Shown: positions 1 to 46,051 of the stretch, piece after piece
How positions within the stretch are numbered: the first letter of the stretch is position 1
Layout: each line of letters opens with the position of its first letter
IMG/VR virus record: IMGVR_UViG_3300002835_000289
Location: 1-49,966 of that record
Reading direction: 5' to 3' (one strand)
DNA: 49,966 nt
Origin: a virus
Made by a program: the position numbers and the translations under genes
The notes under the pieces: generated by a model
What the model was told of the DNA's origin: nothing
What the model saw: only the letters and a program-made list of their open reading frames with translations
Databases searched by the model: none

Positions 1-74
1 ATAAAATCGACTTGTGAATCATCTTCAATGCTATCCGTAATGTCAAGCATATAAATAGGGATTTCAGTATTCAT
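1..74 (-). CDS. XkdF-type prohead protease, 5' end only (copy A)
   Basis: The first 24 codons of a gene that runs off the left edge. They encode MNTEIPIYMLDITDS and continue identically to the complete gene at 32414-33007, which carries the XkdF-like protease domain. The start ATG at 74 corresponds to 33007 after adding 32933. It shows that unit A continues past the window edge with the same gene order (tape measure, then protease). Confidence 0.8.
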   Translation of the reverse strand, partial: MNTEIPIYMLDITDSIEDDSQVDF

Positions 75-261
75 GTTTATAAATAGCTTTTATTTAAAAG
101 TTTATCATTTAATCAAATCTTGCTCTGTTTTCAATCTCCTGCATCCTGCTCTGACTATTGGTAATATCTGTTTCAACAACATACGCCCTGACTATCGTAT
201 CCCCTGATGCACGATCAACACCACCGCCACCTCCGCCACCTAAATCTGGAGTGTCCATTTG
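1..261. repeat. Identical 261-base copy of 32934-33194
   Basis: Every base from 1 to 261 matches 32934-33194; the first mismatch is at 262 (g against a). It covers the start of the protease gene, the intergenic gap and the 3' end of the tape-measure gene. Beyond it the two copies remain homologous but differ by scattered substitutions. This identity is where a chimeric assembly or a recombination junction would most easily form. Confidence 0.95.
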
Positions 262-2388
262 GTTAATCGTAGGGATAGAACCCATAGAACCAACACCACC
301 ACCAGGAGAAGGTATATCAATGAATCCCGGCTCTGATGATCCGCCAGGTACGGGAGGAGTTTTTACCGCTAAAATAGATTTTACATTTTTAAATCCAGCA
401 ACAACTGCTGCTGCCGCCGCCGCAATACCTAAAGGAACACCGACAACTGGAATTTTTGCTAATGATGCAAAAGCCGCAGTTGCAGACATATATGTATCTA
501 TTGTGGTTGAAACAACTGCTGCCGCCTTTCCTGCAATCGTATGCTCACCAACTGCCTTAGCTACGTTCTTTAAGGTGCTGCTAATTTTCCCAGCATTTTC
601 GGCTCTGGATGCAGCTTCTTTTTTACTGAGTTCAATTCTGCCATCCGTTAATTCCTTTTCAGTTTTGCTATATGCAATACTATCAATTTTACCCTCCTTA
701 AATAATTTTCTGTTTAATGCTAAAGCATCATCTACGCCTTTTTTTCTGGCTGCAAAAGTTAGGCTTTCATTATTAGTAATATCTTTAAACCTTTCAAACT
801 CCTTATCGTTAGCCTCCTTTAGAAATTTACTATCAATCGCTGCAACTTCTGCACCATATTTACTCCTTAACGCCGCAATTAATAACCCTTTTTGCTGCTC
901 GGTATAATCTGCATTGCTAAGGATTTTTTTAGTTTCCTCAAGCATTTTTTCATCTAAGGCTGCAATTTCTTTTTCTTTGCCTTCCTTAAATGCAGCAATA
1001 CGAGCATCTGATAAAGTAGCTTGTAAATCCTCTTCGAACTTTTTATCCTTCTTTGCTTGATCTTCTTTTATTTTGTTATCAATTGCATTAACTTCTAACT
1101 GATAAGTCGCTTCACTTGCTTTTTTTAACTCATTCTTAGTTTTTATGTCAATCTTTAAAGCATCAATTTCAGAGATCCTCGCATTATTATTTATCTCCGC
1201 CTGTTTTTTTGCCTTATCATCCTCTGAAGTAATTTCAGCTAATGCCTTTTGATTCTGCAAATCAAGCAACATTTTATCAGCACTCTTTTTATCTTCAATA
1301 GCTTGTTTATTAGCCTCATCCCTTTTCTTCTTTGCTTCCTCTGCTGCTTTTTTATCCTCCTCCGCACTCTTTTTATTAAATTCCGCACTTAAAACTAATT
1401 GCTGAACTTTTAAATCCCTAAACTTTTTCTGCTCTTCTTCCGATAATGTCCCTTTTACCTTACTCGCATTTCTCAGATCATTCAGTTCATTTTCATTTCT
1501 TTGTTTACTTAACTCATAAATCTCTTTTTCAGAACCGCCTTGCGCCTTTAAAACTTTAATTCTGTTTTCAATGTCCTCATTTGCACGTTTATTTGCGACC
1601 GATAATTTATCAAGATTCCTTTCCGCCTCGCTTGTGACTCCAATAAAGTCAGTAAACTGCTCAACTAAATTACCAACACCTTTAGCCAAAGTTCCCAGCG
1701 GACTGCTCATAATCCACTTGCTGATTTTATCAAAGTTTTGAATAACCAAACCCAGCGCAACAACTAAAGCACCAATACCAGTCGCTATAATTGCACCTTT
1801 TAAAATATTGAATCCAACGCTGGTCTGAACAGTTGCAATACCGAAGGCTTTCTGAATTGTTACCGCCGTTTGGGTTGCTGCATTATTTAAAGTCTGGAAG
1901 GTTGTTGTGCTTTTAATTACTGCACCCAACTGTTTAAATGAATCTACACTTTCACCAACTGACTGCAATCCTTGCGACAATGCCATTGCCGCATTTACTT
2001 TTAATAAAGCAGCTTCAACATTCTTATTTTCTTTACCAAATAAAGCCATCCCGCCCTGCAGCGCAGCGAATCCACCAGCAACTCCAGCCAATGAGGAAGC
2101 AACCGCCTTGAATTTAGCATCCGGATTGAATGCATCGGTTAAGGCTTTAGCATCGCCGATTCTATCTTTTAGATCCGCTGCACGCTTGGCCGCATTAATT
2201 GCCTCTTTAGATGTTGCACCAAACTTATCAGAAAGCAATCCAACATCTGCCTGAGCCTCTTTTAATTGGGTTCTTAATGACTTGACCGATTTATCGGTTT
2301 GATCAAAAGCATCGTCTAATTTCTTGACTTGTTCCGTTGCTTGATTGGCATCGGTTGTGATTTTTATTCCAATTATTTCCTCAGCCAT
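109..2388 (-). CDS. Tail tape-measure protein (copy A)
   Basis: 759 residues. The N-terminal 80 residues and a long Lys/Glu/Ala-rich stretch (about 255-620) are coiled-coil-like. Hydrophobic helices lie near 95-120, 190-215 and 640-690, and the C-terminus has a Gly-rich linker before a short conserved tail ending NRARFD. Length, coiled coil and hydrophobic patches are typical of tape-measure proteins, which set tail length and pass through the tail tube during ejection. It overlaps the upstream tail gene by one base and is followed by the protease gene. Compared with copy B it is one residue shorter in the Gly-rich region, and roughly residues 480-610 are strongly diverged while both flanks are near identical. 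Confidence 0.88.
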   Translation of the reverse strand: MAEEIIGIKITTDANQATEQVKKLDDAFDQTDKSVKSLRTQLKEAQADVGLLSDKFGATSKEAINAAKRAADLKDRIGDAKALTDAFNPDAKFKAVASSLAGVAGGFAALQGGMALFGKENKNVEAALLKVNAAMALSQGLQSVGESVDSFKQLGAVIKSTTTFQTLNNAATQTAVTIQKAFGIATVQTSVGFNILKGAIIATGIGALVVALGLVIQNFDKISKWIMSSPLGTLAKGVGNLVEQFTDFIGVTSEAERNLDKLSVANKRANEDIENRIKVLKAQGGSEKEIYELSKQRNENELNDLRNASKVKGTLSEEEQKKFRDLKVQQLVLSAEFNKKSAEEDKKAAEEAKKKRDEANKQAIEDKKSADKMLLDLQNQKALAEITSEDDKAKKQAEINNNARISEIDALKIDIKTKNELKKASEATYQLEVNAIDNKIKEDQAKKDKKFEEDLQATLSDARIAAFKEGKEKEIAALDEKMLEETKKILSNADYTEQQKGLLIAALRSKYGAEVAAIDSKFLKEANDKEFERFKDITNNESLTFAARKKGVDDALALNRKLFKEGKIDSIAYSKTEKELTDGRIELSKKEAASRAENAGKISSTLKNVAKAVGEHTIAGKAAAVVSTTIDTYMSATAAFASLAKIPVVGVPLGIAAAAAAVVAGFKNVKSILAVKTPPVPGGSSEPGFIDIPSPGGGVGSMGSIPTINQMDTPDLGGGGGGGVDRASGDTIVRAYVVETDITNSQSRMQEIENRARFD

Positions 2389-4466
2389 TAGTCTGTATTT
2401 ATCACTTTTAATAATTCAACTTGTGTAGTCCGGTACGATGTCGGATCGTAGGAACTTATTTTATTTAGCCTAAATAATACACCATTAATCCAAATGTATT
2501 TACTGAAATCTAAATTGTAAATATCAACTGCCGTTAAATAAACCCGGCATGTCAATAACTTAGATTCCATATCCGTAATCTCTAAGATATAAGGCTTATG
2601 ATAGGTATTAAATAGATTATTTGTCGGGTAAGTTGTTGCAGGAAATTCAAGTTCCTTTGGTACTCCGAAATTAATATCAATCGTCGGCGTTACCGGATCA
2701 TTCAAATGACCAGCATAGCCGTAAGTAGTCAATGAAGCTAAATTACTCCCCGCCCCATTCACTCCGCTTTTAATATGCCATTGATGCGCAATACTTAATT
2801 TTTTAGCCATTAATATCCGAATAACAGAATCCATCGGATCCTCTTGCGTATTATAATTTGACAATTTATAAATCGCTGAAAAATATTTGTCAAGATGACC
2901 ATGCGAAGTAGGCTGCACTAATACTGTTGGTGCAAAAATTATATTAGTCCCTGCCGTATCCTTTACAAAATCAAACTCTGAATCATAAATAAAATCTCCA
3001 TAACTCTGCACGTACTTTTTTTTATAATTTTCATTGTAATAATCAATGTCATCCGTATATCGGTAAGCATAGTATCTGGCATTTAATTGCGACATCGGTT
3101 TAATTGACATGGCCGAACCAGTATCAATCTTTTGCGACCAGTCTAAACTATTAGTGACCGATGATGAATAAAAGTCTATGTAAGGCGAAATATTGATCTG
3201 CTTTTCGTTTATATTGTCCTGAAAAACATACAAATTAAACATCTTGCAGATTGACAAAAAGAAGTCTTTTTGAAATATTCCTTTTGGTAAATTCTCATTA
3301 ATTGATATCACACCATTATAAGCCACATCAACTATCTGGGAAGTGATCTGAGCAAGGTTAATGTTTGCGCTTGATATTGTTACTATGTAAGTATTGGCAG
3401 CGACTGGAACGCTTATTTCAATCCGTACTGTGTTTGTATTTAAAATGTCACCAGTAAAATCAAAAGTAAACGTAAAAGGATTATTTGCCGAAAACGTATT
3501 TTGCGTAAACGCCTGAACTGCAACCCCAGCAATATACAAAGTTGCAGTAATTGAGGAAGCCGCATCCGTTTGATAAACTCCAGTAATCGAAGCAATTGTT
3601 CTGACTGTTTTTGTTCCATCTGTGTAAGTAAAAATACTTTTTCCTGCATTTTCGGTAACATCCAATAAAACAGTAGTATCAAAAGAAAGATTTGCACTCC
3701 TTGCGGTTGGTGTATTGCTATTGAGCAAGACTTGGGAGATTGTTTTTGTGCCTAAAATAAACCGATCATTCGTACCTCTGATTCCCTGACTATTATTCGG
3801 GATAATTAAAGTCTTAAAAAATGCAGTATTAAAGAAATCACAATTTAAAGTATAGGTTGTTCCTTCAAATATTTTTTCGATATACTCCTTAACATACAAG
3901 GCCGGGCGAAAAGCTGAAACGCTGAAATCATCTTTATTGCTTGAAACATTCCCATAATCAATCAACGGATAATAATATCCAGATCCATTGACTGTATCCC
4001 AGCTATCTTCGATTTCTGTTACGTTATATGTATGGTTATACTCGCTGAAATCTAAATCCTCCAATCTCCTATTCCCTAACTCTGTAATAAATCCTCCTAA
4101 CTCTCCGAATACTGCGCATTGATATTCTGTGATTCCCTTATCAGTTACTATCTCAAGAATCCTGATCACGCCTTTAAAAATTTGAATCCTATCAATGTAA
4201 ACCTCACACTTTGCCGCCTGAGATGCAGTAAAATTTGTGTTTACGTTCGGTAAGTCCATATTATGCTCATGAGCCATATTGATTTCAAAAGCAAACCCGA
4301 AAATCTGATTGTTTCTGGCAGTCGCTGGTATTGAAATAGTCCTGCTAAAGGAAGTATTTTTGCTTCCAAAATCCTTGACATCATCCACCGAATACGTAAA
4401 GTCCGTTGAAATGTCATTCAACAAATCAATCAAATTATCCTCAATATAGATTTCAGTTCTTATCAT
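2388..4466 (-). CDS. Large tail structural protein (copy A)
   Basis: 692 residues, rich in beta-strand-like sequence, Asn, Thr and Tyr; no membrane segment. The N-terminus (MIRTEIYIEDNLIDLL, then a GSKNTSFSRT motif) looks like an uncharacterised tail protein family of Bacteroidota phages, but I cannot name a fold. Position between a 404-residue tail protein and the tape measure suggests a tail tip, baseplate or distal tail role. It overlaps the upstream gene by 4 bases and the tape measure by 1 base, consistent with translational coupling. Copy B at 35324-37402 has the same length. Confidence 0.6.
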   Translation of the reverse strand: MIRTEIYIEDNLIDLLNDISTDFTYSVDDVKDFGSKNTSFSRTISIPATARNNQIFGFAFEINMAHEHNMDLPNVNTNFTASQAAKCEVYIDRIQIFKGVIRILEIVTDKGITEYQCAVFGELGGFITELGNRRLEDLDFSEYNHTYNVTEIEDSWDTVNGSGYYYPLIDYGNVSSNKDDFSVSAFRPALYVKEYIEKIFEGTTYTLNCDFFNTAFFKTLIIPNNSQGIRGTNDRFILGTKTISQVLLNSNTPTARSANLSFDTTVLLDVTENAGKSIFTYTDGTKTVRTIASITGVYQTDAASSITATLYIAGVAVQAFTQNTFSANNPFTFTFDFTGDILNTNTVRIEISVPVAANTYIVTISSANINLAQITSQIVDVAYNGVISINENLPKGIFQKDFFLSICKMFNLYVFQDNINEKQINISPYIDFYSSSVTNSLDWSQKIDTGSAMSIKPMSQLNARYYAYRYTDDIDYYNENYKKKYVQSYGDFIYDSEFDFVKDTAGTNIIFAPTVLVQPTSHGHLDKYFSAIYKLSNYNTQEDPMDSVIRILMAKKLSIAHQWHIKSGVNGAGSNLASLTTYGYAGHLNDPVTPTIDINFGVPKELEFPATTYPTNNLFNTYHKPYILEITDMESKLLTCRVYLTAVDIYNLDFSKYIWINGVLFRLNKISSYDPTSYRTTQVELLKVINTD

Positions 4467-5677
4467 CTGAATTGACTATTTAAGTATTTGCCTATTTCAA
4501 CCTCTAAATCAAAATTGAAAAGCTTATCAGCAACCTTGTACTTGTACTGGTAATTGGTAGTCCTAATCGTGACTGGGAAAAATGCACCTTGCACTTCCAT
4601 ATAAACAATCGGCGAAGCTACCAACTGAGCAAGCCAAGCATAATCCTGATCATTCACCCAGTCGCTTGTTAACATGTAATAATCGCTATGTTGAATTGCA
4701 AAGTTTGAAGTAGTTTCATTGTACTTGTTGAAAGCATCAATATTTGTCATCTGACCGCCCGATAATTTGTATGGATTCCTTCGGTATGAACTGCGCTGAA
4801 ATTCTGACCTACGTTTATTTACCAAACGGAAAGCCATGGTATCATAACCACCTAATCGGTTCAGAAAATGCAGATTATATTGTCGGTATTTCGGATTGCA
4901 AACCTGCTTAAACTTTAATACTCTGGTAACTGCCGCACCTAATGTAATGTAAACATTGTAGCCAAAAGTATTCTCTGTGATAACTGTCGATCCTATAAAA
5001 GCATTGATTGCTGCAGCTTGAAAATTAAATAAGTTGAACTGCCCGGTCATGGTAATATCTCCGCTTACTGCAGTACCTAATGTTCCGTTTTCATTTGTCG
5101 GTTGCACCCATAGCTTATACGCGCCAGATGTGATCTTTAAAAACGTGATAAAAAACTGATCGCCATATTCAATAGGGATTTCTGCATTATCCCGATCAGA
5201 TAACCAGTCATCTGTATAGTTTTCAATTAGTAAATTATCATAGTAATTTGATAAGACTAAAGGTATGTCCCCATTCTCCGTAAATATATCCCCAAATAAA
5301 GGCGCATAATAATTGTAGGCTGAAAAATTACCCGAAGCCAGATTTGCAATAACTGCACCGCTGACCTCCTCGCCAATGCGGATCTGATAATCAACTTTGA
5401 TCTTATCATTTGATGCCATCAAAACAGTTGAACCTGAAGGCTCAAAATAATTAGTAACGTATGACCTTACAACTTGCGAAGCATTGAACACTCCATAGCT
5501 GCCATCTGCCGAAGGTGACGGAAATATTTTATTCCTGCTAACTTGTGAACCATTAATGTAAAGATCGTACACGAATTTAAAATTTGTAGTTCCTACATTT
5601 GTTGAAGAAGCCACAAACCAAAGATCCTCGTGCATACTTGGGAAAGTTGCTGGTTGACTATTTAATGTTATTGCCAT
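4463..5677 (-). CDS. Tail structural protein (copy A)
   Basis: 404 residues starting MAITLNSQPATFPSM. Beta-rich with several aromatic and Asn-rich stretches and no membrane segment or enzymatic motif. It lies in the tail cluster between a 240-residue protein and the 692-residue tail protein, with overlaps of 20 and 4 bases. Its copy at 37399-38613 is the same length and has only scattered conservative substitutions. I infer a structural tail or baseplate component; the exact role is not visible from sequence. Confidence 0.55.
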   Translation of the reverse strand: MAITLNSQPATFPSMHEDLWFVASSTNVGTTNFKFVYDLYINGSQVSRNKIFPSPSADGSYGVFNASQVVRSYVTNYFEPSGSTVLMASNDKIKVDYQIRIGEEVSGAVIANLASGNFSAYNYYAPLFGDIFTENGDIPLVLSNYYDNLLIENYTDDWLSDRDNAEIPIEYGDQFFITFLKITSGAYKLWVQPTNENGTLGTAVSGDITMTGQFNLFNFQAAAINAFIGSTVITENTFGYNVYITLGAAVTRVLKFKQVCNPKYRQYNLHFLNRLGGYDTMAFRLVNKRRSEFQRSSYRRNPYKLSGGQMTNIDAFNKYNETTSNFAIQHSDYYMLTSDWVNDQDYAWLAQLVASPIVYMEVQGAFFPVTIRTTNYQYKYKVADKLFNFDLEVEIGKYLNSQFR

Positions 5678-6380
5678 TTTCTATTTTATTACCAATTTGC
5701 CTAATTTGAAGCTGAACATCGCCACCAAAAGCGGTTGCCATCGCTGTGAAAAAATCCTTATTAAATACTGTCTTGATTGCATTATCAAAATATGATGTTG
5801 TTTTTAATCCATCTCTTTTAATAGCCGAAGCAGTCGCATAGGCTAAAGCCTTTAATGAATCTGCTTTATTTACTATCTGTTTTAGCTTTTTATTTTTTCT
5901 TTGCGTCTTGCTTAAATTCTTTTTTTGCGTTTCAGATGTTGTTTTGGCTTTCCCTAATTTGTACCATTGAAGTATTGAATTAGCCATTTTTGCATTTGGG
6001 AACGGAGTTTTGTAAGCATAAGGTGAATCAGATGCAACTCTTTTTGGTCTTGCGTTTACACCTCCAACCCCTCGCACTCCCTTGTTTACAAATTTGTAAT
6101 AAACCGATGCAGGATTATCCTTGTCATAACCAAGATACATCTCATAATCGTTTCCAAACTTTCGGACTTTCGGAACTGTTAAATCGCCAATCTTGCCCGA
6201 AGCAATCGAACCGCTTTTGCTTAGATTCTTTTGTACCTCATCATTGAACTCCTTACCATAAAACATGAGAATCTGTTCAGCAACTGGGTATTCAGTCGGA
6301 TCAATTAGATCAAACTTATCCCCGATAGTTGTTAAAAATCTATCTCGTAAGGCTTGCGCTTGTGCTTTTGCTTCACTCAT
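5658..6380 (-). CDS. Putative tail completion or neck protein (copy A)
   Basis: 240 residues, mostly alpha-helical at the ends, basic in the middle (several Lys-rich runs around 150-175). The segment near residues 75-115 (YLGYDKDNPASVYYKFVNKG) resembles small neck or tail-completion proteins, but the similarity is only an impression. It lies downstream of the terminase and tail chaperone and overlaps the next tail gene by 20 bases. Copy B (38594-39316) differs at about three residues. Confidence 0.45.
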   Translation of the reverse strand: MSEAKAQAQALRDRFLTTIGDKFDLIDPTEYPVAEQILMFYGKEFNDEVQKNLSKSGSIASGKIGDLTVPKVRKFGNDYEMYLGYDKDNPASVYYKFVNKGVRGVGGVNARPKRVASDSPYAYKTPFPNAKMANSILQWYKLGKAKTTSETQKKNLSKTQRKNKKLKQIVNKADSLKALAYATASAIKRDGLKTTSYFDNAIKTVFNKDFFTAMATAFGGDVQLQIRQIGNKIENGNNIK

Positions 6381-6416
6381 AAATATAAATAGCCAAATAC
6401 CTTTTTAATATCTAAC

Positions 6417-6441
6417 AAAAAAAGCGACTATCTCAGCCGCT
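6417..6441 (-). terminator. Intrinsic terminator after tail chaperone (copy A)
   Basis: On the minus strand AGCGGCT, a five-base loop and AGTCGCT form a 7-bp stem with one G-T pair, followed directly by seven T. The stop codon TAG of the upstream frame lies within the stem-loop. The same structure is kept in copy B at 39353-39377 with one loop base changed. Confidence 0.7.
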
Positions 6442-6682
6442 TGCTCTGTTCTAAATCATACGCATTTTTTGATTTTAAATAAGCCATCACATTTAAGGCT
6501 TCAATAGTTTTTAAGTCAAATGCTTCCGAATTTGTAATATTTTCGTGATCGGCAATAAGTTTAACGGTATAATGCCATCCATAGATTCGCATAAAAGCTG
6601 CTGCACCGAATCCGCTTGCTCCTCTGTCATCCCCGCCTTCATCACTTCCTGCTTCATATAATCCTGCGAAACCTCTATCCAA
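6428..6682 (-). CDS. Minus-one-frame extension of the tail chaperone (copy A)
   Basis: Reading frame shifted by -1 against the 224-residue gene and overlapping its 3' part; it then continues 83 bases past that gene's stop to its own stop inside the terminator. The frame is open from a T9 run (minus strand of 6699-6707), so slippage there would give a fused protein of about 252 residues, as with lambda G and GT. The unique tail (from MRIYGWHYT at 6592) has almost the same sequence in copy B, which supports coding. An independent start at the TTG at 6682 or the ATG at 6592 remains possible. Confidence 0.5.
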   Translation of the reverse strand: MDRGFAGLYEAGSDEGGDDRGASGFGAAAFMRIYGWHYTVKLIADHENITNSEAFDLKTIEALNVMAYLKSKNAYDLEQSKRLR

Positions 6683-7185
6683 TTTCTGTAGACTTGATAA
6701 AAAAAAACCAACGAATGATATACGTCAATGAAATTCGCTTCCTGCATGTCGTGGGAATACACCTCATGCTTACTTGCATCATACTTTTCATCCTTCCATT
6801 TACCCAGCCAATTCTTTTTTTGCGGAATAATCATTGAGGCCGCAATCTTGTGAAGGTTTGCAACTGTATCCTGACTGAAAACCTTGCTTTCAATGTACCG
6901 GGCAAAAGGCATGTTCTTGATGTCGTAATTAATCCGGTACTGCTTTCCGTTAACCTTAATGTAATTAACTGCGCTGCCCTCAATCGGATCATCCAGAAAT
7001 TGCAAATCTTTACGCAACTCTTTTAAGTCCTGAATCCCTAAGCTATCAATCTGATGCTCAGTCAATCCAGTTACAATAGTTAATAGCTTGACTTCCTTAT
7101 CAAGTTCTGTCCAGTCCTTATCAGGATTTTGTAAAATAGGCATGATCTGCTGATACTGCCATAATGTTAATTGATTCCATTTCAT
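6511..7185 (-). CDS. Probable tail assembly chaperone (copy A)
   Basis: 224 residues. The N-terminus (MKWNQLTLWQYQQIMPIL) followed by a helical region around IVTGLTEHQIDSLG resembles tail-assembly chaperones of other siphophages, which bind the tape measure during tail assembly. Codons 160-163 (VFFY) are encoded by a T9 run that is a good minus-one slippery site, and the -1 frame stays open to 6428. It lies 2 bases downstream of the large terminase. The distance of about 4 kb to the tape measure is greater than usual, so the call rests mainly on the frameshift architecture and the N-terminal pattern. Confidence 0.5.
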   Translation of the reverse strand: MKWNQLTLWQYQQIMPILQNPDKDWTELDKEVKLLTIVTGLTEHQIDSLGIQDLKELRKDLQFLDDPIEGSAVNYIKVNGKQYRINYDIKNMPFARYIESKVFSQDTVANLHKIAASMIIPQKKNWLGKWKDEKYDASKHEVYSHDMQEANFIDVYHSLVFFYQVYRNWIEVSQDYMKQEVMKAGMTEEQADSVQQLLCESMDGIIPLNLLPITKILQIRKHLT

Positions 7186-7187
7186 AA

Positions 7188-8339
7188 TTAAGCAAAGGCA
7201 TAACGCCCTGATCCTCTTTTAAAATTAAAATTCTGCCAAGATAAAGCTAAAGCAACTACGCAGTCATCATGAAAACCCGAAGGTGCGGAATATCTTACTC
7301 CATTAGCAGTAAATTGGTACTCAAAAATATCTAATTCATCCACAATCACGCCATCTGGATAACCTATTTTGCGTTGCTGGATTGCCTGAGCAAGTCCTTC
7401 CATTAATTGCTGCTTTGATTGACTGGTAAACTTCAAGCCTTCAATATTTATTCCCTCTCTCATTAAGTCTTCAAGTATTGGATCACCTACTCCGGTGCTA
7501 TCTACCAATATCGGTGCTGGAGGCAAACGCTTAATATTCTCTTTAGTGTTATGCCAGTCCATTTGAAAGCGATCAAAATAAGCCACATTCCCATTTGCAT
7601 CCAATCCAATGATGACAGTAAAATCCACAGACTTTGCTAAGTCAATCCCATAACTTACTATCGGCTGCCCTGATATTGGCTTGATGCAATTCCTAATAAA
7701 TGCACTACCAAAAGGGTTCGCACTATTTTCAGAAGGATTCGCCAAATACTCCTGCTCAAATACAACGGCAGGAAGCTGCAGTTTTGCATCCTCAATCTCT
7801 CTGATATTAATATAAGGGTTATCATAGGTTGTAAATTTAAAGCTGCTCCAGTCCGTTTCACCACCCTTCATGAACAAAGAATAAAAATAGTTCTTACCTC
7901 TGGGCGTAGATAAGAAAACTGCTTTCCCCTGGTAATCTGTCAAAGTTGGTCGAATACTATTTTGCCAACCGCTTTTTAGATCAGGAATAAATGCTGATTC
8001 ATCCACGATCACTAAATGAAATTTGCGCCCTCTTAAATTGTCCAGCCTCTCACCAGTGTAGAACTCAATACTGCCATTATTCGGACAATAAATTTTAAGA
8101 TCAGAAATATTGTTTTTAAAAGGTAAAGCCGATGTAAGTCTTTCAAAAAAAACCTTTGCAAGTTTATAAGTCGGCGTTATGTATGCAACCTGACCGCCTT
8201 TTATTGCTTCTTTAATTCCCATGATCTGGGATAATTCAGACTTACCAAACCTTCTGCCGCACATGACAACAATAAAACGAGCATTGCACTCTAATATCTG
8301 TTGCTGATTGATATGTGGTTTTGGCAGTTCTAACCTCAT
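7188..8339 (-). CDS. terL: Terminase large subunit (copy A)
   Basis: 383 residues. The ATPase domain shows Walker A CGRRFGKS (27-34), Walker B VIVDES (110-115) and the coupling motif FLSTPRG (142-148). The RuvC-like nuclease domain has acidic residues in YGIDLAKS (Asp233), ILVDSTG (Asp280) and FHDD (Asp358, Asp359). The enzyme cuts concatemeric DNA and pumps it into the prohead. It overlaps the small subunit by 4 bases. Copy B differs at about six positions, none in a catalytic motif, so both are expected to be functional. Confidence 0.96.
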   Translation of the reverse strand: MRLELPKPHINQQQILECNARFIVVMCGRRFGKSELSQIMGIKEAIKGGQVAYITPTYKLAKVFFERLTSALPFKNNISDLKIYCPNNGSIEFYTGERLDNLRGRKFHLVIVDESAFIPDLKSGWQNSIRPTLTDYQGKAVFLSTPRGKNYFYSLFMKGGETDWSSFKFTTYDNPYINIREIEDAKLQLPAVVFEQEYLANPSENSANPFGSAFIRNCIKPISGQPIVSYGIDLAKSVDFTVIIGLDANGNVAYFDRFQMDWHNTKENIKRLPPAPILVDSTGVGDPILEDLMREGINIEGLKFTSQSKQQLMEGLAQAIQQRKIGYPDGVIVDELDIFEYQFTANGVRYSAPSGFHDDCVVALALSWQNFNFKRGSGRYAFA

Positions 8340-8698
8340 AAAATAGTTTTACCCTCTACAAATACAACTTCAATCTTTGAATCCTGCTGAATCTCTACCT
8401 GCTCTCTTGGCTTTCCGTAAACTCTGGTAAGTAACGTATCTAAACTATAAAGACTGCCATTTTTTAAACTCTTATTCATCGCATTAGCAATCGTCTTTTC
8501 TAAGATCGTAGCATCCACGTGATCATAAACGCCTTTCAATTCTTCAATAGTCATTGACATCATAACCTGAATTGTATCATTGATCTCGCCCAGTCTATAA
8601 CCCTGCTCTTTAAGTAAGGTTACATACTTGCGATCCTTACCTTTTGGGTTTCCTGACTGACCTTTTTTCCAAGGTGTTAAGTTTTGTAAATTTGCCAT
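8336..8698 (-). CDS. terS: Terminase small subunit (copy A)
   Basis: 120 residues starting MANLQNLTPWKKGQSGNPKG; the GQSGNPKG segment is the hallmark of the DUF5681 N-terminus found in many phage and Bacteroidota terminase-associated proteins. The rest is helical with a basic stretch (TRVYGKPREQ). It directly precedes and overlaps the large subunit by 4 bases, the normal position for the DNA-recognition subunit. Copy B differs at six of 120 residues. Confidence 0.78.
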   Translation of the reverse strand: MANLQNLTPWKKGQSGNPKGKDRKYVTLLKEQGYRLGEINDTIQVMMSMTIEELKGVYDHVDATILEKTIANAMNKSLKNGSLYSLDTLLTRVYGKPREQVEIQQDSKIEVVFVEGKTIL

Positions 8699-8703
8699 CT
8701 TCT

Positions 8704-13044: not shown

Positions 13045-13070
13045 TTATTTTTTTCACTGCATTTTCATTG

Positions 13071-13103
13071 CAAAGTTATCCATTTAATCCTCAAAGTTAC
13101 AAA
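13071..13103 (-). promoter_or_regulatory. Promoter of the late operon (copy A)
   Basis: On the minus strand TTTG (13103-13100), 21 bases, TAACTTTG (13078-13071) matches the Bacteroidota promoter consensus. Transcription would start near 13064, giving a leader of about 20 bases before the sigma-like gene. A second TAACTTTG box lies at 13092-13099. The homology between copies A and B ends at the distal TTTG. Confidence 0.65.
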
Positions 13104-13519: not shown

Positions 13520-13540
13520 TTTTTATCATTTTTAGGGTTA

Positions 13541-31787: not shown

Positions 31788-31799
31788 CGTTTTTTATTT

Positions 31800-33007: not shown

Positions 33008-33041
33008 GTTTATAAATAGCTTTTATTTAAAAGTTTATCAT

Positions 33042-37402: not shown

Positions 37403-38613
37403 CTGAATTGACTATTTAAGTATTTGCCTATTTCAACCTCTAAATCAAAATTGAATAGCTTATCAGCAACCTTGTATTTATACTGGTAATTTGTATTCCT
37501 AATCGTGACCGGGAAGAATGCACCTTGCACTTCCATATAAACAATCGGCGAAGCTACCAACTGAGCAAGCCATGCATAGTCCTGATCATTCACCCAGTCG
37601 CTTGTAAGCATGTAATAATCGGTATGCTGAATTGCAAAGTTTGAAGTAGTTTCATTGTACTTGTTGAAAGCATCAATATTTGTCATCTGACCGCCCGATA
37701 ATTTGTATGGATTTCTCCGGTATGAACTTCTTTGAAATTCTGACCTACGTTTATTTACCAAACGGAAAGCCATTGTATCGTAACCACCTAATCGGTTTAG
37801 GAAGTGAAGATTGTACTGCCGGTATTTCGGATTGCAAACCTGCTTAAACTTTAATACTCTGGTAACTGCCGCACCTAATGTGATGTAAACATTGTAACCA
37901 AAGGTATTCTCTGTTATAACTGTCGAACCTATAAAAGAATTGATTGCCGCAGCTTGGAAATTAAATAAGTTGAACTGCCCGGTCATGGTAATATCTCCGC
38001 TTACTGCAGTACCTAATGTTCCGTTTTCATTTGTCGGTTGCACCCATAGCTTATAAGCTCCAGATGTGATCTTTAAAAACGTGATAAAAAATTGATCGCC
38101 GTATTCAATAGGTATTTCTGAATTATCCCGATCTGATAACCAGTCATCTGTATAGTTTTCAATTAGTAAATTATCATAGTAATTTGATAAGACTAAAGGA
38201 ATGTCCCCATTCTCTGTAAATATATCCCCAAATAACGGCGCATAATAATTGTAGGCTGAAAAATTACCGGATGCTAAATTTGCAATAACTGCACCGCTCA
38301 CTTCCTCTCCTATCCTGACCTGATAATTAACTTTTATCTTATCATTTGATGCCATTAAAACAGTTGTCCCCGAAGGCTCGAAATAATTAGTCACGTATGA
38401 TCTGACAACTTGCGAAGCATTGAAAACTCCATAGCTGCCATCTGCCGAAGGTGAAGGATATATTTTATTCCTGCTTACTTGCGCACCATTGATGTAAAGA
38501 TCATACACAAATTTAAAATTCGTAGTTCCTACATTTGTTGAAGAAGCCACAAACCAAAGATCCTCATGCATACTTGGGAAAGTTGCTGGTTGACTATTTA
38601 ATGTTATTGCCAT
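37399..38613 (-). CDS. Tail structural protein (copy B)
   Basis: 404 residues, about nine substitutions against copy A (for example GSQVSRNKIF to GAQVSRNKIY). Beta-rich, no membrane or enzyme motif. Same overlaps on both sides. Confidence 0.55.
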   Translation of the reverse strand: MAITLNSQPATFPSMHEDLWFVASSTNVGTTNFKFVYDLYINGAQVSRNKIYPSPSADGSYGVFNASQVVRSYVTNYFEPSGTTVLMASNDKIKVNYQVRIGEEVSGAVIANLASGNFSAYNYYAPLFGDIFTENGDIPLVLSNYYDNLLIENYTDDWLSDRDNSEIPIEYGDQFFITFLKITSGAYKLWVQPTNENGTLGTAVSGDITMTGQFNLFNFQAAAINSFIGSTVITENTFGYNVYITLGAAVTRVLKFKQVCNPKYRQYNLHFLNRLGGYDTMAFRLVNKRRSEFQRSSYRRNPYKLSGGQMTNIDAFNKYNETTSNFAIQHTDYYMLTSDWVNDQDYAWLAQLVASPIVYMEVQGAFFPVTIRNTNYQYKYKVADKLFNFDLEVEIGKYLNSQFR

Positions 38614-39316
38614 TTTCTAATTTATTTCCAATTTGCCTAATTTGAAGCTGAACATCCCCACCAAAAGCAGTAGCCATCGCTGTGAAAAAATCCTTATTAA
38701 ATACTGTCTTGATTGCATTATCAAAATATGATGTTGTTTTTAATCCATCCCTTTTAATAGCCGAAGCAGTTGCATACGCTAAAGCCTTTAAGGAATCTGC
38801 TTTATTTACTATCTGTTTGAGCTTTTTATTTTTCCTTTGCGTCTTGCTTAAATTCTTTTTTTGTGTTTCAGATGTTGTTTTGGCTTTCCCTAACTTATAC
38901 CATTGCAAAATAGAATTAGCCATTTTTGCATTTGGGAACGGAGTTTTGTAAGCATAAGGTGAATCCGATGCAACCCTTTTTGGTCTTGCGTTTACACCTC
39001 CAACCCCTCGCACTCCCTTGTTTACAAATTTGTAATAAACTGATGCAGGATTATCCTTATCATAACCCAGATACATCTCATAATCGTTTCCAAACTTTCG
39101 AACCTTTGGAACTGTTAAATCTCCAATCTTACCTGAAGCAATCGAACCGCTTTTGCTTAGATTCTTTTGAACTTCATCATTGAACTCTCTGCCGTAAAAA
39201 ATGAGTATCTGTTCAGCAACTGGGTATTCTGTTGGATCAATTAGATCAAACTTATCGCCGATAGTTGTTAAAAATCTATCTCGCAAGGCTTGCGCTTGTG
39301 CTTTTGCTTCACTCAT
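38594..39316 (-). CDS. Putative tail completion or neck protein (copy B)
   Basis: 240 residues, about three substitutions versus copy A (LMFYGKEF to LIFYGREF; KIENG to KLENG). Basic, helical. Overlaps the next gene by 20 bases. Confidence 0.45.
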   Translation of the reverse strand: MSEAKAQAQALRDRFLTTIGDKFDLIDPTEYPVAEQILIFYGREFNDEVQKNLSKSGSIASGKIGDLTVPKVRKFGNDYEMYLGYDKDNPASVYYKFVNKGVRGVGGVNARPKRVASDSPYAYKTPFPNAKMANSILQWYKLGKAKTTSETQKKNLSKTQRKNKKLKQIVNKADSLKALAYATASAIKRDGLKTTSYFDNAIKTVFNKDFFTAMATAFGGDVQLQIRQIGNKLENGNNIK

Positions 39317-39352
39317 AAATATAAATAGCCAAATACCTTTTTAATATCTAAC

Positions 39353-39377
39353 AAAAAAAGCGACTATCTTAGCCGCT
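39353..39377 (-). terminator. Intrinsic terminator after tail chaperone (copy B)
   Basis: AGCGGCT and AGTCGCT stem with loop AAGAT and seven T on the minus strand. Stem bases are the same as in copy A; one loop base changed, the pattern expected if the structure is kept. Confidence 0.7.
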
Positions 39378-39618
39378 TGCTTTGTTCTAAATCATACGCA
39401 TTTTTTGATTTTAAATAAGCCATCACATTTAAGGCTTCAATAGTTTTTAAGTCAAATGCTTCCGAATTTGTAATATTTTCGTGATCGGCAATAAGTTTAG
39501 TGGTATAATGCCATCCATAGATTCGCATAAAAGCTGCTGCACCGTATCCGCTTGTTGCTCGGTCATCCCCGCCTTCATCACTTCCTGCTTCATATAATCC
39601 TGCGAAACCTCTATCCAA
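39364..39618 (-). CDS. Minus-one-frame extension of the tail chaperone (copy B)
   Basis: As in copy A: -1 frame open from a T9 run (coding strand of plus 39635-39643) to its stop in the terminator. The linker part differs slightly (DRATSGYGAAAF versus DRGASGFGAAAF) while the unique tail is almost unchanged. Retention of both frame and slippery run in two diverged copies supports a programmed frameshift. Confidence 0.5.
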   Translation of the reverse strand: MDRGFAGLYEAGSDEGGDDRATSGYGAAAFMRIYGWHYTTKLIADHENITNSEAFDLKTIEALNVMAYLKSKNAYDLEQSKRLR

Positions 39619-40121
39619 TTTCTGTAGACTTGATAAAAAAAAACCAACGAATGATATACGTCAATGAAATTCGCTTCCTGCATGTCCTGGGAATATTCCT
39701 CATGCTTGCTTGCATCATACTTTTCATCCTTCCATTTACCCATCCAATTCTTTTTTTGCGGAATAATCATTGAAGCTGCAATCTTGTGCAGATTTGCAAC
39801 AGTATCTTTGCTGAAAACCTTGCTTTCAATGTACCGCGCAAAAGGCATGTTCTTGATGTCGTAATTAATTCGGTACTGCTTTCCGTTAACCTTAATGTAA
39901 TTAACTGCGCTTCCCTCAATCGGCTCATCCAGAAATTGCAAATCTTTACGCAACTCCTTTAAGTCCTGAATCCCTAAGCTATCAATCTGATGCTCAGTCA
40001 ATCCAGTTATAATAGTCAATAGCTTGACTTCCTTATCAAGTTCTGTCCAGTCCTTATCAGGATTTTGTAAAATAGGCATGATCTGTTGATACTGCCAAAG
40101 TGTTAATTGATTCCATTTCAT
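39447..40121 (-). CDS. Probable tail assembly chaperone (copy B)
   Basis: 224 residues with about eight substitutions against copy A (LDDPI to LDEPI, FSQDT to FSKDT, NWLGK to NWMGK). Starts 2 bases after the large terminase stop. Contains the T9 run at codons 160-163. Confidence 0.5.
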   Translation of the reverse strand: MKWNQLTLWQYQQIMPILQNPDKDWTELDKEVKLLTIITGLTEHQIDSLGIQDLKELRKDLQFLDEPIEGSAVNYIKVNGKQYRINYDIKNMPFARYIESKVFSKDTVANLHKIAASMIIPQKKNWMGKWKDEKYDASKHEEYSQDMQEANFIDVYHSLVFFYQVYRNWIEVSQDYMKQEVMKAGMTEQQADTVQQLLCESMDGIIPLNLLPITKILQIRKHLT

Positions 40122-40123
40122 AA

Positions 40124-41275
40124 TTAAGCAAAGGCATAACGCCCCGATCCTCGTTTAAAATTAAAATTCTGCCAAGATAAAGCTAAAGCAACTACGCAGT
40201 CATCATGAAATCCCGAAGGTGCTGAATACCGAACGCCATTAGCAGTAAATTGATACTCAAAAATATCTAATTCATCCACAATCACGCCATCTGGATAACC
40301 TATCCTGCGCTGCTGGATTGCCTGAGCAAGTCCCTCCATTAATTGCTGCTTTGATTGACTGGTAAATTTCAAGCCTTCAATATTAATTCCTTCCCGCATT
40401 AAGTCTTCGAGTATTGGATCACCTACTCCGGTGCTATCTACCAATATCGGTGCTGGAGGTAAACGCTTTATATTCTCTTTAGTGTTATGCCAGTCCATTT
40501 GAAAGCGATCAAAATATGCTACATTTCCATTGTCATCCAGTCCGATTATTACTGTAAAATCCACAGACTTTGCTAAGTCAATCCCATAACTTACTATCGG
40601 TTGCGCTGAAATCGGCTTAATGCAATTCCTGATAAATGCACTACCGAAAGGATTCGCACTATTTTCGGAAGGATTCGCCAAATACTCCTGCTCAAATACA
40701 ACGGCAGGAAGTTGTAATTTTGCATCCTCAATCTCTCTGATATTAATATAGGGGTTGTCATACGTTGTAAATTTAAAGCTGCTCCAGTCCGTTTCTCCAC
40801 CCTTCATGAACAAAGAATAAAAATAGTTCTTACCTCTGGGAGTAGATAAGAAAACCGCTTTCCCCTGGTAATCTGTCAAAGTTGGTCGAATACTATTCTG
40901 CCATCCGCTTTTAAGATCAGGAATAAATGCTGATTCATCCACGATCACTAAATGAAATTTTCGACCTCTTAAATTGTCCAGCCTCTCACCAGTATAAAAC
41001 TCAATACTGCCATTATTCGGGCAATAGATTTTAAGATCAGAAATATTGTTTTTAAAAGGTAAAGCCGATGTTAACTTTTCAAAAAATACTTTCGCCAGCT
41101 TATAAGTCGGGGTGATGTATGCAACCTGACCACCTTTTATTGCTTCTTTAATTCCTATAATCTGGGATAGTTCAGACTTGCCAAACCTTCTGCCGCACAT
41201 TACAACAATAAAACGAGCATCACACTCTAATATCTGTTGCTGGTTTATATGTGGTTTTGGCAGTTCTAACCTCAT
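40124..41275 (-). CDS. terL: Terminase large subunit (copy B)
   Basis: 383 residues with all catalytic motifs intact (CGRRFGKS, VIVDES, FLSTPRG, nuclease aspartates in GIDLAKS, ILVDSTG, FHDD). About six substitutions against copy A. Two complete terminases within one 50-kb stretch is not expected for a single phage genome. Confidence 0.96.
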   Translation of the reverse strand: MRLELPKPHINQQQILECDARFIVVMCGRRFGKSELSQIIGIKEAIKGGQVAYITPTYKLAKVFFEKLTSALPFKNNISDLKIYCPNNGSIEFYTGERLDNLRGRKFHLVIVDESAFIPDLKSGWQNSIRPTLTDYQGKAVFLSTPRGKNYFYSLFMKGGETDWSSFKFTTYDNPYINIREIEDAKLQLPAVVFEQEYLANPSENSANPFGSAFIRNCIKPISAQPIVSYGIDLAKSVDFTVIIGLDDNGNVAYFDRFQMDWHNTKENIKRLPPAPILVDSTGVGDPILEDLMREGINIEGLKFTSQSKQQLMEGLAQAIQQRRIGYPDGVIVDELDIFEYQFTANGVRYSAPSGFHDDCVVALALSWQNFNFKRGSGRYAFA

Positions 41276-41634
41276 AAAATAGTTTTACCCTCTACAAATA
41301 CAACTTCAATCTTTGAATCCTGCTGAATCTCTACCTGCTCTCTTGGCTTTCCGTAAACTCTGGTTAGTAACGTATCCATACTGTAAAGACTGCCTTTGCT
41401 AAGGCTCTTATTCATCGCATTAGCTATCGTTTTTTCTAAGATCGTAGCATCCACATGATCATAAACTTCTTTCAATTCCTTAATAGTCATTGACATCATA
41501 ACCTGAATTGTATCATTGATCTCGCCAAGTCTATACCCCTGATCTTTGAGTAAGGTTACATACTTGCGATCCTTACCTTTTGGATTTCCTGACTGACCTT
41601 TTTTCCATGGAGTTAAGTTTTGTAAATTTGCCAT
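41272..41634 (-). CDS. terS: Terminase small subunit (copy B)
   Basis: 120 residues with the GQSGNPKG N-terminus; six substitutions versus copy A (for example LKEQG to LKDQG, KSLKNGSLYSL to KSLSKGSLYSM). Overlaps the large subunit by 4 bases. Confidence 0.78.
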   Translation of the reverse strand: MANLQNLTPWKKGQSGNPKGKDRKYVTLLKDQGYRLGEINDTIQVMMSMTIKELKEVYDHVDATILEKTIANAMNKSLSKGSLYSMDTLLTRVYGKPREQVEIQQDSKIEVVFVEGKTIL

Positions 41635-41639
41635 TACTG

Positions 41640-42173
41640 TTAATTTAAAAAATTATATACTGATAAAACTTTAGGAATATATAAATGTTGTTTTGCATTT
41701 TTAAAACATTCACTTGCAAAAATCCCATCCGCATCGTATCTATCCAATACCCATCTTGATTTTATACATTCAATAGATGTTATAAAATTATGAGAATCAA
41801 TAAAATTTGGTTTAATTTCTATTCCTTCAAGTCTTAATGAACCATTCTTATTAGCTTGTTTAAAAGAAATAAAATCTGCATCCTTTTCTTTTATCTCATC
41901 CCATAATGTTGGTTGAATAATTGTGTCATCGTCATTAAAATAAACATGCCCATCTGTAATTAAATCAAGCGCAAGGTTTCTTTGAGCATTGCCAGATATA
42001 CTACCTATCACCTTGACAGAATAAGGTTCACAAATATCAGGAATATGGTCAGGAATTGCATCTCCATCAAAAACAACAATCCATCTATAAGCATAAGTAG
42101 GTAAATTAATGCTCTCAGCAATTAGATGTAAATTCTGAGGTCTTGAACAAGGCGTTATAATATTTAAAAACAT
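41640..42173 (-). CDS. GT-A-fold glycosyltransferase-like protein (copy B)
   Basis: 177 residues. Four substitutions versus copy A (PDNIP to PDHIP, NKDGS to NKNGS, RWILNR to RWVLDR). YFNDDD and AQRNLALD motifs kept. Directly precedes the small terminase because the Cys-rich gene of copy A is absent here. Confidence 0.75.
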   Translation of the reverse strand: MFLNIITPCSRPQNLHLIAESINLPTYAYRWIVVFDGDAIPDHIPDICEPYSVKVIGSISGNAQRNLALDLITDGHVYFNDDDTIIQPTLWDEIKEKDADFISFKQANKNGSLRLEGIEIKPNFIDSHNFITSIECIKSRWVLDRYDADGIFASECFKNAKQHLYIPKVLSVYNFLN

Positions 42174-42814
42174 GGTTTATCGTTTCTATGTAATACAAGT
42201 AATTTATCATTATTCCATCCTGCAGAATTTTTTAAATTATGATTTGCAAATATGAATGTTGAAGAAGCAAAATAATCAGATAAATGCTCTATTGAATGAA
42301 CATAATCTGCTTCATTTGCATTTATAAAAATATCCTCAATTATTAAAATACCTCCCGGCTTTAAATGCTTATAGGCTTCATTTATAAATCTTATTTGATC
42401 TTCAAATTCATGCGTTGAATCTTCTATTAATATATCAAAATTACTGCCAGAAATAGTTAGTCCTTCAGTAATTGAGTTAACATCTTTTACATTCATTTTA
42501 ATGTAAGTACAATCAATATTGTCATTATTTGCTTTCTCTATTCTTGAATCAAACCACTCAAAACCGTATAGCTTAGCATTCGGAAAAAACTCCCTCCAGC
42601 TATGCATAGAATGATTGTCTAAGATCCCCAACTCCCCAACTTTAATATCCTTATATCTCATGTTTGAAAACAAAAGGTTATAAATAGATGTATAGGCATG
42701 TTTATGCAAACCTGCATCAGTATTATAAGGCGATTTATCCGTTGGATATTTAACCCCCAGATCACACAATTCAGTTCTTGAATTAGTCGAATCTATTGTT
42801 ATACTGTTAAACAT
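42164..42814 (-). CDS. SAM-dependent methyltransferase, class I (copy B)
   Basis: 216 residues from MFNSITIDS. Same Rossmann-type motifs as copy A (ELGILDNHSM, YGFEW, LIEDSTHEFEDQ, LKPGGILIIEDI). Start 42814 overlaps the previous stop; the longer frame to 42841 differs between copies and is unlikely. Confidence 0.72.
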   Translation of the reverse strand: MFNSITIDSTNSRTELCDLGVKYPTDKSPYNTDAGLHKHAYTSIYNLLFSNMRYKDIKVGELGILDNHSMHSWREFFPNAKLYGFEWFDSRIEKANNDNIDCTYIKMNVKDVNSITEGLTISGSNFDILIEDSTHEFEDQIRFINEAYKHLKPGGILIIEDIFINANEADYVHSIEHLSDYFASSTFIFANHNLKNSAGWNNDKLLVLHRNDKPCF

Positions 42815-43445
42815 ACCTTGTTCCATAATCTGTATGTGCATGTTTGCATATTAATTCATGATTATTATAATATTTAAACTCGTTTATCGCATCTATACAA
42901 ATCAACGCATCTGGAAATGCTTGTAAATAATCTTCTTGCCATCTGAAAGGATATTTTTCAATCATAGTTCTTTTGTAAATTGTGCAACCGCTTAAAACAT
43001 GATTGGTGTATTGTATGCCTTTGAGTTTATAATCGTGGAATCCCTCATAATATAAAGCACCAACCGCGCCACAATCTAATGGCATTGTTTCAATGTTTTC
43101 TAAAAGTATATCTATTGTTCCCTCCGGAATAATCACGTCACTCTCTACTATTAAAAAATATTCGTAATTAGACTTTAAAAAAATATCCCGCAAGTACAAA
43201 ACTGACTCTGCAACTTTTCTGTGAAATTTTGTTTCTGCAGGATGATCCGGTATGTCCAAATTTACAATGTTGCAGTTAATAATATTTTGCAAATCCCTTA
43301 CATATTGACCGTTATCATTTGTGTTATCAACAACATAGATATGATCGGTGCTAATATTTTTTTGCAATGCATTAAAAAATTCAATATCACAATATCGTTT
43401 AACTTTATTGGTATAAACGGCTACAAATACATTTGATTTATCCAT
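42807..43445 (-). CDS. Glycosyltransferase, GT-A type (copy B)
   Basis: 212 residues, MDKSNVFVAVYTNKVKRYCD start with no upstream extension, which decided the start for copy A. FLIVESDVIIPEG and SGCTIYKR motifs are present. Confidence 0.7.
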   Translation of the reverse strand: MDKSNVFVAVYTNKVKRYCDIEFFNALQKNISTDHIYVVDNTNDNGQYVRDLQNIINCNIVNLDIPDHPAETKFHRKVAESVLYLRDIFLKSNYEYFLIVESDVIIPEGTIDILLENIETMPLDCGAVGALYYEGFHDYKLKGIQYTNHVLSGCTIYKRTMIEKYPFRWQEDYLQAFPDALICIDAINEFKYYNNHELICKHAHTDYGTRYV

Positions 43446-43869
43446 TATTTGTCTGCTTTTGGGTGTCTATTTCTGCAAGTTTTCTCTTTGCCCAAGCAAC
43501 GCCCTCATCGCCTCCCCAAGCTAACCACATTAATGCGCCGCAATCTGTTTTTGGATCTCCCTTTGAATTTTCCCGATGCCTTTCAAAACTTGACATTCTG
43601 GCGATTGTTTCTCTGCTTATGTTTTCGCCTTTAGCTATTTGGTTCGCCCTTGTCCATCCTACTAAAGTTCCGCAATTCTTATCGTTTTCCTTCTTGATAT
43701 TTAATGCTCTCCGCGCATTGGCTTTCGCCGCCTCTGGGTAATCATTATAACTATCAACCATAGCGACACGAATAGCTGCCCAAACTGATTGTGCTTTTTC
43801 TTCGGTGATAAAGATACATGCACCGGATCCGATCCGATACATTCCGTTACTGCATTTAATTACTGGCAT
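43438..43869 (-). CDS. Phage protein with GWTRANQ/GGDEG signature (copy B)
   Basis: 143 residues; the last residues (TQKQTNNG) extend seven beyond copy A, so this gene overlaps the next start by 8 bases. Core motifs LVGWTRANQIAKGENISR and LMWLAWGGDEGVAWA are unchanged. Confidence 0.6.
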   Translation of the reverse strand: MPVIKCSNGMYRIGSGACIFITEEKAQSVWAAIRVAMVDSYNDYPEAAKANARRALNIKKENDKNCGTLVGWTRANQIAKGENISRETIARMSSFERHRENSKGDPKTDCGALMWLAWGGDEGVAWAKRKLAEIDTQKQTNNG

Positions 43870-44860
43870 TTCCTATTAGTTTTTTATAAATAGCGTAACG
43901 CTTTTTATTTACTTCCTGAAGATTAAAATGAAGATTGCAGTAATCATACAGATTATTTCCGTATTCAATTCTCGCATCCTGATCAAGAGTTAATAATCGA
44001 ATCCATTTATACCAATCCTTTTGAGAATTCACATAACAGACCGGCAAATCTTTATACGGATGAACGTTGGTCACAATAGCTGGATTCTTTTTAGATGCAG
44101 TTTCCAAAACCTTGAGATTTGATTTCATCATGTTGAATCTATTATCTACCAACGGAATCAGACTTATATCGGAATCACAATAAGCTGCCATGTATTCAGT
44201 AACCTGATTGTAATTGTAGATTGTCGGATTAAGTTTCAATCCATTGGTAAACGCTGAAATCATTCCATCCCAAATATGTTTTTCGCCCTCATTGTAACCT
44301 GCTATCACAGTCCTGACAGGAAAGTTAATCCGCTTCATTGGGTTTTTTAGAATGTTTATATCCTTGCCATGTGTTCCAGAACCCGACCAGAATAACCGCA
44401 CCAGATCAGAAGGCTTTTTATCTAAAATGAATTGTTCCTTCCCAAAGGGAATCGCATTAGGCAATATCTCTACGTTTGGATTAATCTTAAATATCTCATC
44501 AGCTAATCGTTCATGAGTGCAAGTGCAGAGATCAGCAATCCTAATCCATTCTATTATTTGTTCAGTTACTTTATTCCCTTTGTAGCTTTCATAAAGAATA
44601 TGCGAAGGATCTAAATGCCAGAAGTCGTCATTATCAACTACCAATTTAAAACCATGCTTTGTTCGCCAAGCATCCATCTGATCAGGCGTTATGTTTTGAA
44701 GCATCCGATTCATAACCACGATGTCATAATTGCCCTCAAAGGTTTCATCGCTAATTGTATCAGTCATCATGCAGTAATCCTTCTGCATATTTACAATCGG
44801 CATCATTATCCGATGATAACCAACTCCGCTGCTCTTTGTTGTAATTGCAAGTATTCTCAT
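43856..44860 (-). CDS. GT-B-type glycosyltransferase (copy B)
   Basis: 334 residues. Differs from copy A at scattered positions (TKTSGVG to TKSSGVG, KANKVTEQIIDYI to KGNKVTEQIIEWI) and at the end (KLIGNASN). Motifs VEILPNAIPFG and WSGSGTHGKD intact. Confidence 0.82.
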   Translation of the reverse strand: MRILAITTKSSGVGYHRIMMPIVNMQKDYCMMTDTISDETFEGNYDIVVMNRMLQNITPDQMDAWRTKHGFKLVVDNDDFWHLDPSHILYESYKGNKVTEQIIEWIRIADLCTCTHERLADEIFKINPNVEILPNAIPFGKEQFILDKKPSDLVRLFWSGSGTHGKDINILKNPMKRINFPVRTVIAGYNEGEKHIWDGMISAFTNGLKLNPTIYNYNQVTEYMAAYCDSDISLIPLVDNRFNMMKSNLKVLETASKKNPAIVTNVHPYKDLPVCYVNSQKDWYKWIRLLTLDQDARIEYGNNLYDYCNLHFNLQEVNKKRYAIYKKLIGNASN

Positions 44861-45087
44861 TGCTTCTCAAACCATTTATACAATCTCATGATCATGTCAT
44901 ACTTACAGTTCCCGCACCAAACGGAAAGCAGGAAATTAGGATCAAGGTATAATCTGTAAATATGCTCATACATTTGCAGTACAGACAAGTCTAAATTTCT
45001 GATATACCCATTCTTTGCACATTCATAATTGCTCTGATTAGCAATCAGCCAATCCCGGTGTTCTTGTTTCATTTCCATAAACTCCAA
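44857..45087 (-). CDS. Small conserved protein of the glycan module (copy B)
   Basis: 76 residues; NYECAKNGYIRNLDLS and WCGNCKYDMIMRLYKWF as in copy A. Overlaps both neighbours. Confidence 0.6.
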   Translation of the reverse strand: MEFMEMKQEHRDWLIANQSNYECAKNGYIRNLDLSVLQMYEHIYRLYLDPNFLLSVWCGNCKYDMIMRLYKWFEKQ

Positions 45088-45308
45088 ATTAATTTGGTTA
45101 CAATCGGCGCACAGAAGCCAGAAATAAAAATCGTGCTGGTAATTTCTTGTATCAATTCAGGTGCATAGTAATGTAATGGTGAAAGCCAGGCTGCCAGACA
45201 ACTTCCACAATTGAAAGGCTTGAAATTGATTTTCCATCTATGATGAAAATGATGTATTTCCGTAAAAAATAGCGATGCACAGATTGCAGTTATAATTGAT
45301 AAAATCAT
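45069..45308 (-). CDS. Small membrane protein with GSCLAAWLS motif (copy B)
   Basis: 79 residues; two hydrophobic helices and KPFNCGSCLAAWLS as in copy A, with a handful of substitutions (FHIRWK to FHHRWK). Confidence 0.6.
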   Translation of the reverse strand: MILSIITAICASLFFTEIHHFHHRWKINFKPFNCGSCLAAWLSPLHYYAPELIQEITSTIFISGFCAPIVTKLIWSLWK

Positions 45309-45799
45309 TTTTTAATATTCTTTTTAATCTCGGCTTTGGTCTTATTGATTGATCTAACAATTGACATATAAGGGATGCCGGTCTTTCGGCTTAATTCTTT
45401 CGCATTCTTTTTAAAATCTAAAGCGTATAATTTGAATAGTTCCCGATTATACCAATGAAGGTTTTGTAAATGTAATTCTATTTTTTGATATGATTCCTCT
45501 GGATCCGATTCTACGCTTTGAACTTCCTGATCATTCTCCAGCAATTCCGTATAGTTTCTGTAATTCTTAAAAAAATTACTTCGGTCGCTTTTGATCATGT
45601 TCAGCATAATTCGAACCATGTAATACTTTAGTTCGTTTCTTTGATACAAGCCGATTAACTTCTCCTCTTCCATTTCACAGAGTACCAGAAAAACCTCAGC
45701 TTTTAAGTCCGCTTGAAGTTCTACAGGTTGCATCTTTTCAAATGCCTCATTGACTGCTTTTGATTCCCAAAATTCAGCTATGATCTTATCCCTTGACAT
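45305..45799 (-). CDS. Sigma-70-like factor, late-gene regulator (copy B)
   Basis: 164 residues; only three substitutions from copy A (SKSV to SKAV, LKSEV to LKAEV, LLDNDQ to LLENDQ). It has the same promoter and leads the B late operon. Confidence 0.72.
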   Translation of the reverse strand: MSRDKIIAEFWESKAVNEAFEKMQPVELQADLKAEVFLVLCEMEEEKLIGLYQRNELKYYMVRIMLNMIKSDRSNFFKNYRNYTELLENDQEVQSVESDPEESYQKIELHLQNLHWYNRELFKLYALDFKKNAKELSRKTGIPYMSIVRSINKTKAEIKKNIKK

Positions 45800-45825
45800 T
45801 TGATTTTTTCACTGCATTTTCATTG

Positions 45826-45858
45826 CAAAGGTATCCATTTAATCCTCAAAGTTACAAA
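45826..45858 (-). promoter_or_regulatory. Promoter of the late operon (copy B)
   Basis: On the minus strand TTTG (45858-45855), 21 bases, TACCTTTG (45833-45826). The spacing is identical to copy A although the -7 box differs by two bases in the unconstrained nn positions, which supports a functional promoter. Confidence 0.68.
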
Positions 45859-46051
45859 AATCTGATAACTTCCTAATTTTTGTATAATCCCCATTAAACT
45901 CGCAATCATTCAAAGTATCTATCCGTTGTTTGATGCAGCGGATGAATAGATCGCGGCGTTCTTCTAAAATGTTGTTTATACTAATTATTTCTCCTTGCTT
46001 CATATTATCAGCTATCAGAAAAGCCTTTGCTAAATCTTTGTCAGGTATCAT
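45839..46051 (-). CDS. Small protein with RRDLFIRCIKQRIDTL core (unit B)
   Basis: 70 residues, with the C-terminal end (SDFCNFED) encoded over the promoter sequence. In unit A the inserted 74-codon gene displaces that end. N-terminal half unlike that of unit A. Confidence 0.6.
   Translation of the reverse strand: MIPDKDLAKAFLIADNMKQGEIISINNILEERRDLFIRCIKQRIDTLNDCEFNGDYTKIRKLSDFCNFED

Follow-up and report, generated by a model that had tools for sequence, protein, structure and literature searches.

The whole stretch of DNA analysed here (49,966 b, referred to as the window) is an entire IMG/VR virus record, classed as linear, and comparison of its sequence with related records indicates that it is very probably a chimera produced in assembly from two sister tailed phages that occur together, designated A and B. 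The record runs once fully around the circle of phage A, continues for 202 b more of A and then passes into phage B. Phage B exists as a single unit, and other records run continuously from A to A and from B to B. The original prediction had described two copies of the late operon in tandem, which is misleading, as bases 1-32933 hold one circular phage A, after which phage B follows. The double late operon is most likely an assembly artefact and not a real feature, which disposes of a spurious 50-kb phage with a double late operon.

Nearly all genes of the window lie on the minus strand. The window is assigned to the tailed phages because PHROGs gave matches to a terminase, tape measure, portal, head protease, endolysin and replication proteins. 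Its features are as follows, with G001 denoting a single-unit record of phage B.

1-32933: phage A, complete circular map of 32,933 b, whose opening point lies in the head-protease/tape-measure region
32934-33135: continuation of A beyond its own starting point, identical to 1-202, with A alleles at 33008, 33120 and 33135
33136-33194: 59-b stretch common to A and B, exact and present once in each, located in the 3′-terminal part of the tape-measure gene; putative chimeric junction
33136-49966: about half of sister phage B, 100 % identical to G001 over 33136-34017 and 34160-49966
109-13044, minus strand: A copy of the tape measure, tail, terminase and glycan genes and a candidate sigma gene
33042-45799, minus strand: B copy of the tape measure, tail, terminase and glycan genes and a candidate sigma gene
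22963-33007, minus strand: lysis, tail-fibre and head module of A; the B copy lies past the record end (G001 about 21494-31400)
13812-19418, minus strand: replication module of A (primase/helicase, C5 methyltransferase, exonuclease), mostly without a DNA match in B
46070-49966, minus strand: part of the replication module of B (N6 methyltransferase, helicase, phrog_28855 primase-like), truncated by the record end

The predicted repeat is present in the record. Self-blastn of the window aligned 1-13103 with 32934-45858 at about 93 % DNA identity, in two blocks (1-8698 with 32934-41634 at 93.4 %, and 8889-13103 with 41620-45858 at 93.2 %), and the offset at the start of the repeat is exactly 32933. 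The longest shared stretch is an exact match of 261 b (1-261 and 32934-33194), which abuts base 1 of the record. The terminase copies are 98.4 % identical, in line with the 1-2 % protein divergence predicted, and the other proteins of the repeat are 92.4-98.8 % identical, so that the larger differences expected elsewhere are only mildly apparent within the repeat and truly hold for the replication modules. Differences within the repeat genes fall mostly at third codon positions, and both copies thus look functional and long diverged rather than products of sequencing noise. Beyond 13103 only short matches were found (13332-13420 with 45870-45958, and 17632-17919 with 46749-47036 at 82 %), and the copies separate after about 13.4 kb, with replication modules that have for the most part no relation to each other. 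The sister phages combine late genes that are 93 % alike with mostly unrelated replication modules (13420-19520 against about 11800-18200 of G001). The N6-adenine methyltransferase of B (46070-46727 of the window) is split into two overlapping frames, the same in G001, and is likely a frameshifted gene.

The repeat is also only part of a late operon. It holds the terminase, tail and glycan genes and the candidate sigma factor, without the head genes, so the “whole late operon” is not duplicated, and neither PHROGs nor Pfam supports the sigma-factor label. The head and lysis module (22963-33007) is single in the window, as had been predicted, and the second head module simply lies beyond the end of the record. 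A late module truly duplicated inside a single larger phage genome would account for the presence of a repeat, but this is barely credible, because the spacing of the copies equals one unit genome, the diverged second copy is that of another phage, base by base, and the records G001 and L004 described below already contradict it; this reading was rejected. The observation that one unit is about the size of a complete genome holds for this spacing and for the known single-unit record of B.

Phage B is represented separately by G001 (IMGVR_UViG_3300044613_001005), a single unit of 32,434 b. From 33136 onward the window is 100 % identical to this record, save for 142 b outside the ends of G001, and upstream of 33136 the identity falls to about 93-94 %. 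G001 is thus like the B half of the window and unlike the window as a whole, being a single unit with its own head, lysis, tail-fibre and replication genes. The 142 b between its ends are present in the window and are bridged by a second record, L102, which makes B a circle of about 32,576 b. Three IMG/VR records (G001, L101 and L102) are continuous from B to B across the position of the switch.

For phage A, the sequence of 1-202 returns at 32934-33135 and carries A alleles there at three sites that are unlike B; this is the record continuing beyond its own start. Record L004, from a different metagenome (3300042514), crosses the same wrap, from 31734-32933 into 1-297, over 1,497 b with zero mismatches. 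Further pieces match A over 12415-20386 (L104, 100 %), 23318-30452 (L141, 100 %), 27214-31860 (L221, 99.9 %) and 2751-4456 (L004, 99.9 %). The suggested search for single circular 33-kb genomes succeeded for B in the form of G001; for A, searches with its primase, tail fibre and portal gave pieces only and no unit-length record of A alone. No near-identical A-type record was found for 298-2750, 4457-12414 and 20387-23317, and the second and third of these intervals are assigned to A by contig continuity only. Over 298-2750, L004 is 95.6 % identical to A and 92 % to B, and this 2.45-kb patch in the tape-measure region probably reflects natural exchange between these phages. The region 20300-23000 had been proposed as a possible junction, but it is broadly collinear with phage B and bears no sign of one, and a second break there was rejected.

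The switch itself is narrowly bounded. A alleles end at 33135 and B alleles begin at 33195, and the 59 b between them (33136-33194) are identical in the two phages; over the 261-b stretch, A and B are alike at 258 of 261 bases, the final 59 being identical. The join thus falls inside a stretch common to both phages, and each phage exists separately and is continuous over it (B in G001, L101 and L102; A in L004). A scan of IMG/VR with a 51-b core returned four other records, of which three are continuous from B to B and one, L004, from A to A, and the A-B combination is absent from all other IMG/VR records holding this core. Both genomes occur in one sample, as metagenome 3300020571 holds a piece of A (L104) and a piece of B (L101), each 100 % identical. 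Walking once around the A circle, 202 b further and then along B yields a sequence with no difference from the window, a test that is independent only for the B part less 142 b, since the A part and those 142 b of B are derived from the window. The assembly chimera of two sister phages, the first of the options listed in the original prediction, is strongly supported by the single-unit B, the A-A continuity in independent records and the short common junction. Having gone round A, the assembler would have re-entered the stretch over which A and B are almost the same and taken the B branch out of it, leaving the circle of A unclosed. Real virions would each contain a single unit bearing a single late operon.

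The exact overlap of A and B at the switch, with B taken from G001, is 59 b, which is shorter than a k-mer of 127, so that a local variant of B, a true A-B recombinant or a smaller k would be needed for the crossing. None of these turns the 50-kb tandem into one molecule. It is possible, though doubtful, that the junction reads were supplied by a real recombinant phage with the head side of A, the tail side of B and a crossover in the 3′-terminal part of the tape-measure gene. The A alleles at 33120 and 33135 precede the B alleles at 33195 with only 59 common bases between, and L004, which is identical to A save over 298-2750, suggests that exchange inside the tape-measure gene does happen; against this, no other IMG/VR record with the core carries the A-B combination. 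Such a recombinant would be a variant of the chimera reading, as the contig would still be composite, and the likelihoods given to the two are not meant to add up to a whole.

Hundreds of IMG/VR stretches are related to the window. Apart from G010, 18 further relatives of 30 kb or more were recovered, and all measure 30.2-34.7 kb, which is the size of a single unit. Thirteen records were searched for the terminase; eleven of them (31.4-33.7 kb) gave one match each, and no match was found in G021 (28.1 kb) or G027 (30.3 kb). Terminal or near-terminal repeats of 55-127 b were seen in 9 of the 16 relatives checked; end repeats of k-mer length have been described by the authors of CheckV and are a sign of a circle broken by the assembler (PMC8116208). 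Record G010 (IMGVR_UViG_3300043436_001856, 63,203 b) contains two units, about 89 % alike, head to tail, and its first 127 b (1-127) recur exactly at 31281-31407, 127 being a k-mer length. G021 runs from the end of the second unit of G010 back into the start of that unit at 100 % identity. Two circles with a common graph node would be expected to give such a figure-eight pattern, and the sequences suggest that G010 is likely another chimera of two sister phages. G010 is like the window in holding two diverged, head-to-tail units from this phage family, with the second unit self-closed in another record, and unlike it in having two nearly full units and in the exact repeat of its first 127 b.

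The existence of a second double record, together with the homologous recombination that could in principle join sister phages, might suggest a true mixed A/B concatemer or heterodimer, formed in a co-infected cell and frequent enough to be assembled. This is very improbable, as in both the window and G010 the second unit is found elsewhere at 100 % identity, closed or nearly closed on itself, the contig starts fall in the repeat, that of G010 being exactly a k-mer length, and rare intermediates would not be expected to dominate an assembly. Independent records holding both copies in one lineage, as expected of a genuine tandem, were not found among these relatives: those of unit length that were checked carry one terminase, and G010 resolves into two phages. 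Of the predicted options, a true tandem molecule, prophages in tandem and duplication of the late module are unsupported: apart from the window no record joins A to B at this position, no integrase was found, and the single near relative from a genome collection is a contig of unit length.

The 15-mer frequencies of the window (1.14) and G010 (1.16) are presumably too low for the warning given by CheckV, and k-mer duplication checks can miss such chimeras because the units differ by 7-11 %. The telltale signs are instead a length greater than one unit, a first base that falls within the longest internal repeat, and relatives of single-unit size. Whole genomes repeated within IMG/VR contigs have been regarded as probable artefacts by the authors of CheckV, who named chimeras of closely related viruses as currently undetected by CheckV (PMC8116208). 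Chen et al. (PMC7111523) describe chimeric joins and contigs that were concatenated artificially, and repeat-driven chimeric phage contigs are described for Phables (PMC10563150). The contigs in these reports resemble the window in having more than one genome copy per contig, k-mer-length end repeats and strain branching in the assembly graph. The window differs from them in that its copies are 93 % alike instead of identical and in its low 15-mer frequency.

No named phage matched the first 13.1 kb of the window at the DNA level, and against 1,212 records of named phages the terminase matched below 60 % identity only. The match of the tail protein among named phages is an Elizabethkingia phage, at only 23.5 % across one third of the protein. 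Among genome contigs, near relatives were found only in one Chitinophagaceae MAG (UBA8137), in which two contigs (L099 and L100) carry different relatives of the window terminase, one of them being of unit length (32,926 b). A Chitinophagaceae host is a lead, by binning only. Two prophages in tandem in a host chromosome would match the gene order, but can be given next to no weight: no integrase was found among the scanned proteins of the window and phage B, in agreement with the original prediction, Rfam and tRNA scans of the window gave no match, no host genes were recognised in it, and the only near relatives on genome contigs are those of this MAG, with its unit-length contig.

The tail-fibre-like protein (25030-26892) has a conserved first part of roughly 300-380 residues in many records, and the rest is variable. 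The A and B proteins are 57 % identical overall, with tail-fibre matches in the C-terminal half of the B protein, and the variation looks like swapping of a putative receptor-binding part.
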